From positions 27,735 to 91,734 of the forward strand of contig JNDT01001541.1 of NCBI GenBank assembly GCA_000697055.1: 64,000 bases of DNA. Direction: 5' to 3'. The position numbers and the translations under genes are program-made. This DNA comes from Saksenaea vasiformis B4078 (taxonomy: Eukaryota > Mucoromycota > Mucoromycetes > Mucorales > Saksenaeaceae). Below, piece after piece: positions 1,149 through 7,615 of the stretch. Positions within the stretch are counted from its first letter, which is position 1. Every line of letters starts with the position of its first letter. A model generated the notes under the pieces. That model worked only from the letters and a program-made list of their open reading frames with translations. It searched no databases and had not been told where the DNA came from.

Positions 1149-4100
1149 TCAATTTGTCATTTCAGTTTCGATTTGTTCCGTATATTTGCGGATGGCTGCT
1201 TCGAGCTCTTTCTTGAGCACAGGCTTACTGATGTAACCGTTCATGCCTATGGAATGAAGGTTACTTTTACACAACACGTCGTGTTGTCAATTTTCTGACA
1301 TTACCTGCTTCAATGCATTTCTCACGGTCGCCCGGCATGACACATGCTGTCATGGCTATAATGTAGGGGCGCGTAGAGGATTGTGCTAGATCCTTGCGAA
1401 TTTTTTCTGCTGCCTCAAGTCCATTCATTTCTGGCATCCAAACGTCCATAAAAACCAAGTCAAAAGTTTTGCCTTCTGTGCAAGCATTTGCCAGAATATC
1501 ACATGCTTTCTTTCCATCCTGAGCAACCGTTGGTTTGCTACCCAGTATCTGCTCTAGCATGCGCGAAAATACTTTTTGGTTGACCGGGTTATCATCTACG
1601 AGTAAACTCTTGAGTTTCAAATTTGTCAGAGATGCATAATCTGTTTTCTTGCAAGACGACCGGCGTTCGCATTGTGGTTCCGTAATGGCGATCTTAGTGG
1701 TGAGTTGATGCAGTATCCGGAACAAATGTGTGTTTTTGAACGGTTTTATAAGGCTAACAGTGGAAGTAACACCGATAACGTCGTCAGAATTGCTTGTCAG
1801 GGCAGAGTCGTGCCTTTTAGCAGATGATCTTTGGAGACGACTATCCTTGATACAAAGAATTGGCATCGTCAAACAGAAACGTGATTTCAGTTCGTCCAGC
1901 ACACTTTCACTAGAGGTAGGTTCATTTCCAAGTTCCTGGACAATTTCAAGATCAAGATCGATGATCAGCAACGATATTGTCTGTAGATTAGTTTTAATGT
2001 AATCCACAGCATCAACAAAGTTGTACGCGTGCATTTCGACACCGGCAGTGGTTAGGATACTAATCCATGCTTCGTGAAGACATGGTTTTTCACTGATGAC
2101 AAGAACATCTGTACATTCGTTTGCCAATTCCTGCAACTGATATTGCTCTCCATATGTAGGACTATTTGACTGTACTTCAAGCATCATGCGACAATAAAAC
2201 GTTGACCCTCGCCCAACTTCCGATTCAACCCACTGGAAATGATTAGTATTGGCTTGGCATCTTGTATCGTTACCATATCACCACCCATCATACGGCACAA
2301 CATCCTACTAATCGCTAAACCGAGCCCTGTAGAACTACGGTAAACAACTAGCCATTATTGCAGCAGACTCACCTGTACCACCAAAGTTACGTGATGTAGA
2401 CGCATCGTATACTTGCGAAAATGATTTGAAAAGCTGCTTTATCTTGTTATGCGGAATCCCAATCCCAGTGTCCGTAACAGAAATAGCAAACGTAACGAAG
2501 TCTTTGGCATCACCCATGTCGATGTAGCATTGTGCATCACTGTCGTCGTCTTCTTTCTTGGAAAAGAAGGCATCGGGGGTTTCCGTGCTTACATAGATCG
2601 AAACATATCCATCGCTGGTGAACTTAATTGCATTTGAAAGCCTAAGCTGGAGCATAAGTTTTAGCCATATCAATGCCGCAACTTTTACAAGTTAAGTAAT
2701 ATTTGCCGTAGCCGCACTAGGTCCCCATATACATGAATTGGAACATTCCTATCAATATGATACCAAAGTGCGATGTCTTTGCTAAGATAATTCGATGATA
2801 GAAGGCTCATAGCACTTTCGACTGCAAATGTCTGAGGCATGCGTCAGATTAGTCCGTATTTCCGTTTTTCTTCCACTCACCATATCGAACTGACCCTTTT
2901 CCAAAGTAAATTTTCCGGATTCAATTTTAGAATAGTCCAAGATATCATCGATTAAAGCCATAAGATGATTCCCTGTAAATCAGGCACAATTAACACGGGA
3001 CTCCTAAATAGAAATACAAACCAGATGACTCTATCGTCTCCGCGCATTCGTAAAGATCGGGAGGCAGATCACTTTCCATAAGCATGCGAGACATGCCTAT
3101 CACCGCGTTCATTGGTGTTCGGATTTCTAATAAAACGAGGAAGTACAAGTTATAATACCTAACCTTCTTGATAGATACTTGTATACCGTGCGACATATTT
3201 GCCAAAAAGTTCTGTTTAGAGGCTGCTGCTGCTTCTGCTACTTCTTTTGCTGCCTTTAGATCTAGCAAACGAGATCAGATATACACGTATGTATACTAGC
3301 AATATCCTTTTCATACAAACCTTTGAGTAATGCCTGAGTCCGGGTCTTTTCTTCCTCAAGTTCCATCGTGCGTTGTTGTAAGTTCTCGGTGCGCTTCCTC
3401 ACCAAGTTCTCCATATCATTCGCATATTTCTCCAGCTATGTACCAGAAAGCAAATAAAATGAATGATTTCAATCCCTGCTTTCGTTCTTTCTACCATGAT
3501 AGCCATATTGTCAACGACACAGTCAGATCCTACTGAGTATGGGTCCAATTCTTTGACTCTAGCCTAAAAGGAGAGACGTTAGCTAACCCTATTTCGCATA
3601 GCAGCTTACCGCTATAGTAGATATAGCTGGTCGTGACTCAGGGTTACGTCGCAAACACTCTAGTATGATGGCGTTGATGCCATCAGAATACTCATCGTGA
3701 CCCTGTGGTAAGGTTCGCGGATACAGATCCTCTTCACGGATTTGATTGAAGATACTTTCGCAGCTAAATCCTTGGACCTGTTGCTCGATATATGGCTTTT
3801 CACGAGTCAAAATCTCATTAATGATAATGCCAGTACTGATACAACCCAATGAGAAAGGAAACCGTACAACATTTTAGCAAGCTACCTGTAAACGTTTGAT
3901 GCTTTGGTGGGTAAGGAGAGATAAAATCCCAAGGGAGTGCACACGATCGACTCGGGAGCAGCCCATAATAGCTTGTCGCTGGATTGGATTACCGAAGTAC
4001 AGTCATCGTAAGGTATCTGATGTTCTCGTTTGGGAAGAGCAGAAAGCATAAGGGGATCCAATTGAGAGCGCCTCACGGCGTTCAAACCATAGTCCGTGAT

Positions 4101-7100
4101 CTTGAGTTCCCACTTTCCAGATACCATACATGACGAAGAGGTCAATGATCCGTGAACTAAGAACCTGGACCGCTGCAAAAAGTCCATACCTATTATAAAA
4201 TAGAAATACAAAGTATCAGCTTCGTCCCTGTGTATGTACTTAAAATACCATCAAGTAGGTCATGAATGAGTGAGAACCGGAATATCCACGTTAGTTCAAT
4301 ATCTGTATTAGCCAAGACATCTGCTAATGTTCCTTTTGCGCAATGCTCTAACCAACGCCGTGTCAGTATGTTCTGCTGAAATTTCAGTAGATGTAACCTT
4401 CAACGACAAACGTGCGCTGCGGTTCAAAGCAAAGTCCAATGAACTCAGCCAGCTTCGGATGCCGTGCATCCTTCATCAATGCGATCTCTTTTCGCACCCC
4501 GTCATCGATACGAACACGTTTTTGGCCAATCTGTTTGATTAGGACAGGCAGGTTCCGGCTATTAAAAACAATGTCAATACACAAATACAGATAGAAGTGA
4601 CAATCGCACGGTCGTACTGGATACCAAGCGCTTGCGTAAACCCTGCTGAATTGCTAGACCGATGTTGAGTTAGCTTTGTTAACATATATGGGTAATTTAC
4701 ATCATCCAGTCCTTGTCTCGAGTCTCCTTTTTTGCACATTCCACATCCACAGTATTCTTAAGAGAAAGTTTCGTATTGCTTATACTTCTGGAGAGAGATG
4801 CTAATGGTTTCTCAAATTGTTTCTCATTTAACGGCACAGATCCTGCAATGGATGGTTGTTCTGTCAAGCATTGCGTGAGATCGTCAAAGCTCAGCAGCCA
4901 TGAATTATCCCCAAGGAGCGCAGCCGCTTTTCGGTTTCGGCGGATTTGCCATAGTTTCATTAACACAAGTCCAGCAAAAAGTAAGCAACCTAGTGGAATA
5001 AATACCGCCATATAGATTTGTTTGGTTGCCCTTGATAGATTCTCTACAAACGCCATACATGTTGGATTATGGCTATTTGCACCGTCGTCACAGTGCGAGC
5101 AAAATGAAGCACCTGGGAAAGCATAAGTCCCATCCTCGCAATGCTGGCAGGCTTGCTGATTTGGTTGTGACGAAAACATATTTTCAGGGCAATGTATGCA
5201 CTGGATTGCTTTCCGAATACGCCCATTATCCGTGCAGAAATAGTCAGAGGCTAATTTATAGTAGTACGTGCCTGACGGACATACGGACTGGATGCGTGAT
5301 GCCGAAACCAATGCAGCTTCCCACGGATGATAGGATACAACCGATTTTGCAAGAAAGAGATTCAACAGAGAAAGGAAACCTATAGCAAACATATTTGTGT
5401 ACCTAAGTCGCTGTTAGCCTCCCAAGTTGTCGTAAAAAGTTATTTACCAAAACGCTCTGATACGGCCTTCTAAAAATGCTTGTACCTGATCGTAAAGATC
5501 ACCCGACGTGTATAATGCAGTAGTATTCGTCATATAGCCTTTCAGCATGCGCTGAGGATTGAAAAAAGAATAAGTCAATCGGTAAATATCTATAGAAGGA
5601 AGTAGACGTTTCCTACAGTGTTGATGATACCAAACACATATTCCGAAAGTGTCACGTAAGCATCCGGTACGTAATTTTGCTTTTCAAGTGAAGCTATAAT
5701 GTTTCGAAATTCGTGATCCATGGCTTCTGATGTGGAAGGACTTATCGTGTGAATGACAAGATCGCGGTCGGGTACATGGCCTTGCATGTTATCATGAAGA
5801 GACGAATAAAAAATATCACAGAAATCTACCATCGTTCGATGTGTGTGCTCAGATATACATATCGGTGAAACCGCCTTATCCACCGCTACTGCCTGTGCCA
5901 CCGATTTGGCTAATGATGTTTTGTCCATCGTAATATTAACCGTAGTCCTGATTTAACAGCGTCAGCATTATATGAATAAACACTACAGATTGACCCACCG
6001 TTCATTCGGTCCCAGCTCTTCAAAAAATGCCCCTGTCGGTTCAGCAGGTAAGCTTGTAATGTTGCTAACAGAAGAACGATATTGTATCCTCTCCAAATCA
6101 CCAGATTCAAAGAAGATCCCATTTGCACCTTGTTCTGCGTAAGATATCAACCCAGTTCGAAACCCTTTTTGAAACAGCATTAACTAATCAGGAGCAGCCC
6201 ACGTTTATGTTCTTACCTACCGAAGATTGGGTTGCCTAATGATAAAAAGGATCACTCAGTATAATGTCCATCCACGTCTCTTATGGCTTTTTACCTCGGC
6301 CTGGTTGAGAACGGTCCAGTTCAGTTTGTGAGCAAAATCATGTGCCCCTGCCATGAGTGCTGCGTTGTATGTGTCACCTCGCGCATTTGAGACAACAGCG
6401 CTAATATAAGTGGATGTGGATCGGAGAGGGACCAGTTTTGATTTTTCATTCTGAATCGTTGTCAGTAAGGTTTCGTTTGTGACCAGTATAGGTCCAGTCT
6501 TGACAGTTTGGTTGACAAAGACATCATAGCCTGATAGCAACTGATAAAATGATAAATACTAAATCGGCCGCTGACTCGAAGGAGTTTACCCGGAGATACA
6601 TGTAAAAAACTGGCAGGGCTGTTTGATAATATGGGAGTTGAGATATTGCGATGGTGTCACCGTGTTCGTGGAACAGTTTTACCATGTTGTTACTGCCGAT
6701 ATCAAACATGGAAACACCCACACGACGGTGGTTATCCGTACGTTTGATAGCAAGCACAGCGTCGCTAACGATATCAGATGTTATCTGTCCAACTATGAGA
6801 AATAAGTCACGCATTGTGAGCTATTTTCTGTTACCGAGCCTCCTAACGCGATGATGGAGTCGAAAGAGTTATTTGCTAGAAAAGCGTCGCGAATCTCCGC
6901 TATAGGTTGGGCAAACGCCCCGTAGTCTGGAAGCGACAAAACAAAGGGGTTGTGTTGCAGGGCTTGCTGGATACCTGAGAGTCTTTTTTGGCAGCTCATA
7001 TCATCTAATCCAGGTACCTGCACCGCGAGTGGACGGGAGTAACCTCGCCTTTTCAGTTCCTGCCCAAGAAGTAGTCCTGCCTCTTCGTCGTCCTGCAGGA

Positions 7101-7615
7101 CGCTTGTAAGCCCAAGCTGCCGGGCGTATTCAATGCCAGTGTTAAATACAATAATCGGAACTTTTTTTTCAAGAGCATAATGGATTGCGCCGAGTAATCC
7201 ATCGTTTGGAATTGTTAATATTATGCCGTCGACACCCTGGGAAGAAAGTGAGAATGATAAAAGTACGAGATAGTGTATATACTCTGTCAACGGCACTGCG
7301 GATATCAGTTGACATTCTGGACGTTGTATTGACGAGATGCTTATTCCATGTGAGGTCGATATCGAGTATAGCAGCGGCATCACGAGCCCCCTGTTCTGGA
7401 TTATGGAAGGAGGTATCCATTGCCAAGTCATGAGAAATCATGGTAACCCGTCGTCGGCTCCAGGTGGAAGCGGCACATTGCGGCAAGTGAAAAGAAGGCT
7501 CCTCTGGGTGAGAGTAATGGTTGCTGTGCCGTTCAGCGGACGTCACGACAAGAAGAAGCCATGCAATATCGGTCAAAATTTGCCAACAGCGCAGGTTAAT
7601 AGAATGCTTAAGCAT
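1149..7615 (-). CDS. Receptor-type hybrid histidine kinase with guanylate-cyclase-receptor-like front half
   Basis: About 1,750 aa from 23 exons that join in frame. Residues ~1-27 form a signal peptide (MLKHSINL start; an in-frame ATG at 7660 would add 15 residues). Two tandem type I periplasmic-binding folds follow (~45-330, with [13 protein letters not shown]; ~335-640, with [18 protein letters not shown]), then a Cys-rich GCC2/GCC3-like stretch (~645-720) and one membrane helix (~728-750). A kinase homology domain (~833-1110) keeps the beta3 Lys (PVLIKQI) and APE, has TDYGL for DFG, and has HGSL where HRD should be, so it lacks the catalytic Asp, as in receptor guanylate cyclases. A coiled coil (~1127-1175) leads to HisKA ([15 protein letters not shown]), HATPase ([28 protein letters not shown]), a degenerate receiver (~1450-1590) and a canonical receiver ([10 protein letters not shown]; Asp in [16 protein letters not shown]). 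Inferred role: binding an extracellular ligand and signalling by phosphorelay. The 18-nt exon 4625-4642 and the junction 6184-6294 are tentative. Confidence 0.9.

Follow-up and report, generated by a model that had tools for sequence, protein, structure and literature searches.

The window, the whole stretch of 64,000 nucleotides analysed here from contig JNDT01001541.1 of the mucoralean fungus Saksenaea vasiformis B4078, contains on its minus strand, at 1149..7615, a gene for a predicted receptor hybrid histidine kinase of 1756 residues. We interpret this protein, with a probability of about 0.7, as one of a family of cell-surface hybrid histidine kinases of Mucorales and Mortierellaceae, in which a small cyclitol- or sugar-like ligand would act through a pseudokinase and an S-helix on a His-Asp phosphorelay. 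The single frame, the domain order, the conservation of the phosphorelay His and Asp residues, the lack of a cyclase, the affinity of the kinase and S-helix with receptor guanylate cyclases (RGCs) and that of the ectodomain with CUT2 sugar-binding proteins were all obtained by computation. The receptor is a hybrid histidine kinase in class and not an RGC, because it is RGC-like only from the kinase to the S-helix and fails on both the cyclase and the ectodomain.

The gene reads in one frame from an ATG at 7615 to a stop at 1149 through 24 exons, in agreement with the continuous spliced frame proposed in an earlier note on this DNA, whose coordinates, strand and domain order are likewise upheld by the splice model, Pfam and family profiles. 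The model was set by hand with GT-AG sites and corrected against relatives; each of the 23 introns is 41-65 nt long, with an in-frame stop in 16, a shift of frame caused by six and one that would stay open. Automatic dynamic programming of splice sites was dropped because it over-called introns (31 exons), though it had exon 10 right. An earlier version of the protein with 1751 residues, which carries residues 833-839 in place of 12 correct ones and otherwise differs only in numbering (+5), was used for Pfam, hydropathy, the PDB search with the kinase, the searches for relatives, the 79-row alignments of this version with 78 relatives, the profiles and the tree. Among the matches listed the closest is P0001 from Apophysomyces, and as its alignment covers 99% of the region searched, with 65% identity, a chance origin of the frame is excluded.

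The family has at least 78 further fungal members in Mucorales and Mortierellaceae, 22 recovered with the window protein and 56 more with a Linnemannia relative; candidates in both searches were ranked by the short words they share, in lists of limited length, and the number of members is a lower bound. The same domain order, proposed in the earlier note as something to look for in other early-diverging fungi, is accordingly found in both of these groups: Peripla_BP_4, kinase and HisKA occur together in the Pfam lists of 68 of the 78 relatives, and all ten parts have more than 60% of their columns filled in 57 of the 79 aligned proteins, with S-helix and HisKA each aligned at this threshold in 77. 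Grouped by protein id, the Mortierella proteins comprise group A (P0022 and P0034-P0068) and group B (P0069-P0089), which are separated in a kinase tree containing eight and five of their members, respectively. Five records (P0003, P0004, P0018, P0048 and P0074) bear the name of a guanylate cyclase or RGC kinase although their domain lists contain no cyclase; P0004, P0018 and P0048 are short.

The evidence for the central claim of the earlier note, that a coiled coil joins an RGC-type pseudokinase to a hybrid histidine kinase in one frame, converges on the S-helix (residues 1127-1170; 3260..3509, minus strand). Homology to an RGC (P0023) covers residues 1088-1163 and homology to a histidine kinase (P0091) residues 1120-1200 in the 1751-residue numbering, so that the two overlap on the S-helix; the starts of other histidine-kinase matches vary. 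Between the kinase end and the RT of the S-helix, a stretch of 23 residues in the window protein is nearly the same as MDNMVNMLEKYANNLESLVEERT in a coral RGC, the two having in common (V/M)DNMxxMLEKYAN..E.LV..RT. Kinase RP through RT takes up 47 residues in the window protein and 44-45 in the five RGC-type proteins compared, and after RT the fungal helix appears to be one heptad longer than in RGCs. Of 77 members, 76 have a spacing of 48 residues from RT to the phospho-accepting His, and the remaining one has 65. The S-helix (97%) and HisKA (96%) are also the most conserved parts in the comparison with P0001. The junction at 3436-3494, indicated in the earlier note as the passage from pseudokinase to HisKA, is intron 15 (3494-3436) and lies within the S-helix, as does intron 16. 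The claim is therefore borne out by the splice model, the overlap of homologies and the recurrence of the order in two fungal groups. In the available part of the S-helix paper, an S-helix following an S/T-kinase-type domain is described only for animal RGCs, and fungal S-helices were then known only in Sln1-type kinases (PMC1592074). Judged by sequence, the fungal receptor family unites these two arrangements.

The kinase homology domain (residues 846-1109; 3561..4557, minus strand) has HGS for HRD and DYG for DFG but keeps the beta-3 Lys. It is recognized by Pfam (PK_Tyr_Ser-Thr, E 1.4e-25), and its PDB sequence matches are led by ANP receptor 1 (2.9e-38), with GC-C (1.7e-17) and plant CTR1 (8.4e-14) following; the match to ANP receptor 1 extends past the kinase into the coiled coil. 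Built from 78 fungal kinase domains including that of the window protein, a profile gives 149-207 bits for nine RGC-type proteins (eight from named animals, plus P0027), 189 bits for the kinase-cyclase protein P0032, which we take to be from an amoeba, 115 bits for the algal P0033, and 11-16 bits (maximum 15.6) for the seven protein kinase-histidine kinase (PK-histidine-kinase) proteins matched. In the same genome, another kinase locus, matched in two pieces, scores 12 and 36 bits, and the matches found outside the receptor gene are weak (25-26% identity). The 42 rows of a kinase tree comprise 25 of the 79 family kinases, nine RGC-type rows, three from P0032 and P0033, and five PK-histidine-kinase rows. 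The fungal family kinases form one group in it (93/99) and cluster with the RGC-like rows, separate from the five PK-histidine-kinase rows (100/100), though many branches are long; the animal rows did not form a single group. Together, the ANP receptor 1 match, the profile scores and the tree support the description of this domain as a pseudokinase of RGC type. RGC-like layouts are also seen beyond animals: in P0032 a cyclase is combined with two kinase-like stretches, and for P0033 a periplasmic-binding protein (PBP) domain, a kinase and a cyclase are listed.

Inspection of the alignment shows that none of the 79 family proteins keeps both catalytic Asps (HRD and DFG), and that the losses take different courses. 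In Mucorales the HRD Asp is found in 0/21 non-gap rows and the DFG Asp in 17/21. Mortierella group A has lost both in 36/36, the DFG Asp being replaced by Gly in 35/36, while group B has the HRD Asp in 19/20 non-gap rows, and, in 21/21 each, Gly or Ser in place of the DFG Asp and Arg at the position of the beta-3 Lys. Such differing losses among the three groups fit a conserved non-catalytic role.

The output half consists of HisKA (2914..3217, with the phospho-accepting His 1194 at 3188-3190), HATPase_c (2182..2726, with the N-box Asn 1311) and two receivers, all on the minus strand. Pfam recovers HisKA (E 3.5e-20), HATPase_c (1.6e-25) and Response_reg (1.3e-23), the last being receiver 2 (1188..1605), which is intact with Asp 1678 and Lys 1732. 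Receiver 1 (residues 1453-1595; 1693..2121) has no Pfam match in the window protein and is assigned by its profile match to receiver 2 (hhalign 96.6%, receiver 1 being represented by the 41 usable rows out of 79; an unrelated profile gave 1.0%); its phospho-site position holds D in 45 and E in 27 of 72 non-gap rows. The claimed set of HisKA, HATPase and two receivers hence holds, with receiver 1 degenerate. Counted in the 79-row alignment with gapped rows set aside, the HisKA His is conserved in 77/77, the N-box Asn in 72/72, and the receiver-2 Asp and Lys each in 67/67. The phospho-His, N-box and receiver Asp and Lys expected of a hybrid histidine kinase are all present, and activity is predicted. 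One HPt match in the genome is a candidate partner. The class III cyclase domain (PF00211) is absent from the window protein and listed for 0/78 relatives, some of which are short records. Two PF00211 places elsewhere in the genome (L001 and L002) were considered as candidate RGCs and rejected, each having PP2C in a neighbouring open frame instead; PP2C with a cyclase is the layout of fungal adenylyl cyclases, and there are apparently two such genes in this one genome.

The domain search of the predicted protein that the earlier note had proposed returned, besides the kinase and output domains, Peripla_BP_4 (E 8.7e-14; 52.1 bits, gathering score 35.1) for the first PBP fold (residues 56-338; 6457..7450, minus strand), whose PDB sequence and NCBIfam matches are of CUT2 sugar-binding type. 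The second fold (residues 352-602; 5393..6417) is a diverged tandem copy without a Pfam match in the window protein and without a PDB sequence match at E up to 5; the family profiles of the two folds nevertheless match each other (hhalign 98.1%, E 9.7e-14), as opposed to 0.1% and 0.6% for the kinase profile against either fold, and both claimed folds are thereby confirmed. The Cys-rich GCC2/GCC3 (ephrin-receptor-like) segment (residues 640-715; 5054..5281) has nine Cys columns kept at 90% or more in the 51 proteins of alignment A2; PF07699 is found in two of five relatives scanned (P0011 and P0069) but not by Pfam in the window protein itself. The membrane helix (residues 727-751; 4946..5020) falls in a stretch flagged by hydropathy (726-752, up to 2.44), which agrees with the claim of a membrane helix; that there is just one is less clear, as hydropathy also flags 603-622 at the end of fold 2, which reads, from its position in the sequence, as part of that fold. 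The putative signal peptide (residues 1-30; 7526..7615) looks like one by eye but stays below the hydropathy threshold. What does not survive is the statement that this front part is the same as in natriuretic-peptide receptors, for by Pfam the ectodomain of the window protein is Peripla_BP_4, of the CUT2 sugar-binding type, and not ANF_receptor (PF01094). This genome has its PF01094 matches elsewhere, on four further contigs. Those on C306, C600 and C5 (L025 and L027-L035) have class C G-protein-coupled receptor (7tm_3) matches nearby, as in genes resembling class C G-protein-coupled receptors, and the place on C459 is without a 7tm_3 match.

For both ectodomains tried, the top PDB sequence match is 4ru1, a CUT2 monosaccharide-binding protein (E 1.6e-17 with fold 1 of the window protein and 2.4e-17 with Linnemannia), presumably solved with myo-inositol. 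Seven ectodomains were scanned with NCBIfam (five from Mucorales and one each from Mortierella groups A and B), and in 7/7 the top model is the rhizopine-binding protein (NF052284; 51.6-109 bits), the next model, where present, scoring 20-22 bits. Four residues of fold 1 are presumed pocket positions on the basis of CUT2 chemistry. Arg196 and Asp273 are each kept in 70/70 non-gap rows, and Thr-Gly 325-326 is also kept across all three groups. Asn143 is found in 14/15 Mucorales and 36/36 of Mortierella group A, with Tyr in 20/20 of group B, and Gln294 in 13/15 and 35/35, with Ser, Gly or Asn in 20/20 of group B. Rhizopines are inositol-derived and taken up via the solute-binding protein MocB, according to the accessible part of PMC10107442. 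The ligand of fold 1 is hence most likely, as far as these resemblances go, a cyclitol or sugar of the inositol or rhizopine type; its exact identity is a lead only, because the ectodomain scores are far under the model's cut-off. The group B proteins, with their changed candidate pocket and other kinase losses, look like paralogues with a different ligand. No bacterial donor of fold 1 was identified with a 283-residue query, which gave six matches, the three named ones being Mucorales proteins.

Several alternatives need to be weighed against a single receptor of this kind. Two adjacent genes, one for a receptor-pseudokinase and one for a cytoplasmic hybrid kinase, could mimic one frame, and the location of introns 15 and 16 in the joint, together with one-sided records (P0017 and P0018 stop before the S-helix; P0015, P0020 and P0021 are without the ectodomain), could be read in this way; however, 57 of the 79 proteins span all ten parts, the S-helix and HisKA are the best conserved parts against P0001 and the RT-to-His spacing is nearly constant, so that we regard this as highly improbable, even if the records are not fully independent, since gene-calling habits may be common to them. 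One mRNA would be expected. It would likewise be very surprising if the gene were a duplicate decaying to a pseudogene, or its histidine kinase as dead as its kinase: the absence of the Asp pair from every pseudokinase and the degenerate receiver 1 are in keeping with such decay, but the HisKA His, N-box Asn and receiver-2 Asp and Lys are invariant in aligned rows and the window frame is intact. A Ser/Thr-kinase-related sensor domain presumably belongs to group X of the fungal hybrid kinases, and the receptor could be a relative of these PK-type kinases that has gained an ectodomain, with a kinase not derived from RGCs. A domain of this kind is indeed counted among the sensor domains of major fungal groups in the available part of a 2016 review (PMC4965123); against this stand the wide gap between the profile scores of RGC-type and PK-histidine-kinase proteins, the 100/100 split in the tree, albeit with long branches and five PK-histidine-kinase rows, and the lack of a Pfam match to GAF or AAA in the window protein, and we give this derivation very little credence.

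A less improbable alternative, though still an unlikely one, leaves the receptor as it is and has its ectodomain bind a peptide or protein partner, as natriuretic receptors do. The divergence of fold 2, with nine columns kept at 90% or more as against 25 in fold 1, would suit a protein partner, as would the modest bits to the rhizopine model and the differing pocket positions of group B; conversely, Arg196, Asp273 and Thr-Gly 325-326 persist in all three groups, and the best solved and modelled relatives of fold 1 are named as sugar- or rhizopine-binding proteins. Turning to the small-ligand phosphorelay receptor preferred here, certain observations weigh against it. None of the seven ectodomains reaches the NCBIfam equivalog cut-off for the rhizopine solute-binding protein MocB (420 bits), and group B alters two of the candidate pocket positions (Asn143 and Gln294). 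Further, 22 of the 79 proteins lack at least one aligned part, most of them being short or partial records, and the hydrophobic stretch at 603-622 leaves the topology ambiguous. Finally, many members may no longer bind nucleotide, given the replacement of the beta-3 Lys by Arg in group B and of the DFG Asp by Gly in group A.

On balance, the small-ligand receptor may be pictured as operating in the following manner. Fold 1 would bind a small polyhydroxylated ligand outside the cell, and fold 2 with the Cys-rich stalk would relay the closure to the membrane helix. The RGC-type pseudokinase, dead but conserved, would occupy the place it has in natriuretic receptors, between membrane and S-helix, and would probably serve as a spacer or brake that depends on nucleotide. 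Through the S-helix, which RGCs and histidine kinases have in common, the movement would then reach the DHp helices of a presumed dimer, a switch whose direction we infer. His1194 would be phosphorylated, with the phosphate passing to Asp1678 of receiver 2 and from there to a Ypd1-like HPt protein.

Comparison with known systems helps to place the family. RGCs such as ANP receptor 1/GC-A resemble it in having a PBP-type ectodomain and membrane helix ahead of an HGx/DYG pseudokinase, followed at nearly equal spacing by an S-helix; the fungal ectodomain, however, comes from another PBP family (Peripla_BP_4) with two folds and a Cys segment, its coiled coil is apparently longer by one heptad, and a histidine kinase with receivers replaces the cyclase. 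S-helix hybrid kinases (fungal Sln1; bacterial BarA and TorS) have the same succession of S-helix, HisKA, HATPase and receiver, and BarA is the top NCBIfam model in all four relatives scanned, below its cut-off; unlike them, the window protein has no HAMP match and carries a PBP ectodomain and a pseudokinase in front. The fungal group X proteins (PK-GAF-HK) also combine a kinase-like domain and a hybrid kinase in one polypeptide, but the receptor's kinase is distant from theirs by score and tree, and GAF and AAA matches are lacking in the window protein; P0090, which we take to have the group X layout, is the sole fungal protein of that layout compared. MocB-type rhizopine-binding and CUT2 sugar-binding proteins (NF052284; PDB 4ru1) are the best match of fold 1, from which the fungal fold differs as the ectodomain of a eukaryotic receptor, far under the model cut-off and with a tandem second fold.

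The earlier note had called the system undescribed, and no published account of the layout was found among the titles and abstract openings listed in searches for it and for rhizopine; protein records do exist, and a small number carry names such as 'RGC/RGC protein kinase' or 'guanylate cyclase'. The available text of a 2021 receiver survey names 19 groups of fungal hybrid kinases and does not describe this layout (PMC8510515), and the consulted portion of a 2019 review holds nothing resembling it (PMC6944256). According to the accessible part of the 2016 review (PMC4965123), no cell-surface location is predicted for most fungal histidine kinases outside group VI. Herivaux 2017, whose survey included Mortierella elongata, mentions in its accessible part that early fungi have transmembrane hybrid kinases without precedent; Fig. 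2 or the supplement of that paper may already draw the layout (PMC5285503). Next to the receptor gene, a GH81 glucanase C-terminal domain (PF17652) is encoded in three open stretches at 9-846 of the window, on the plus strand and converging on it.

More speculatively, the family might constitute a class of receptors for rhizosphere signals derived from inositol (inositols and rhizopine-like inosamines), in which a nucleotide-sensing RGC pseudokinase gates a phosphorelay, which predates the split of Mucorales and Mortierellaceae and of which the Mortierella paralogues are tuned to another ligand; we consider this wider proposal possible but doubtful. The family reading accounts for the records that are called guanylate cyclases in spite of domain lists without a cyclase. 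It would also unite two receptor classes at their common S-helix, so that nature itself offers a way of testing if the RGC pseudokinase with its S-helix forms an output-independent relay, and soil fungi would gain a candidate receptor at the surface for which a definite class of ligands can be tried.

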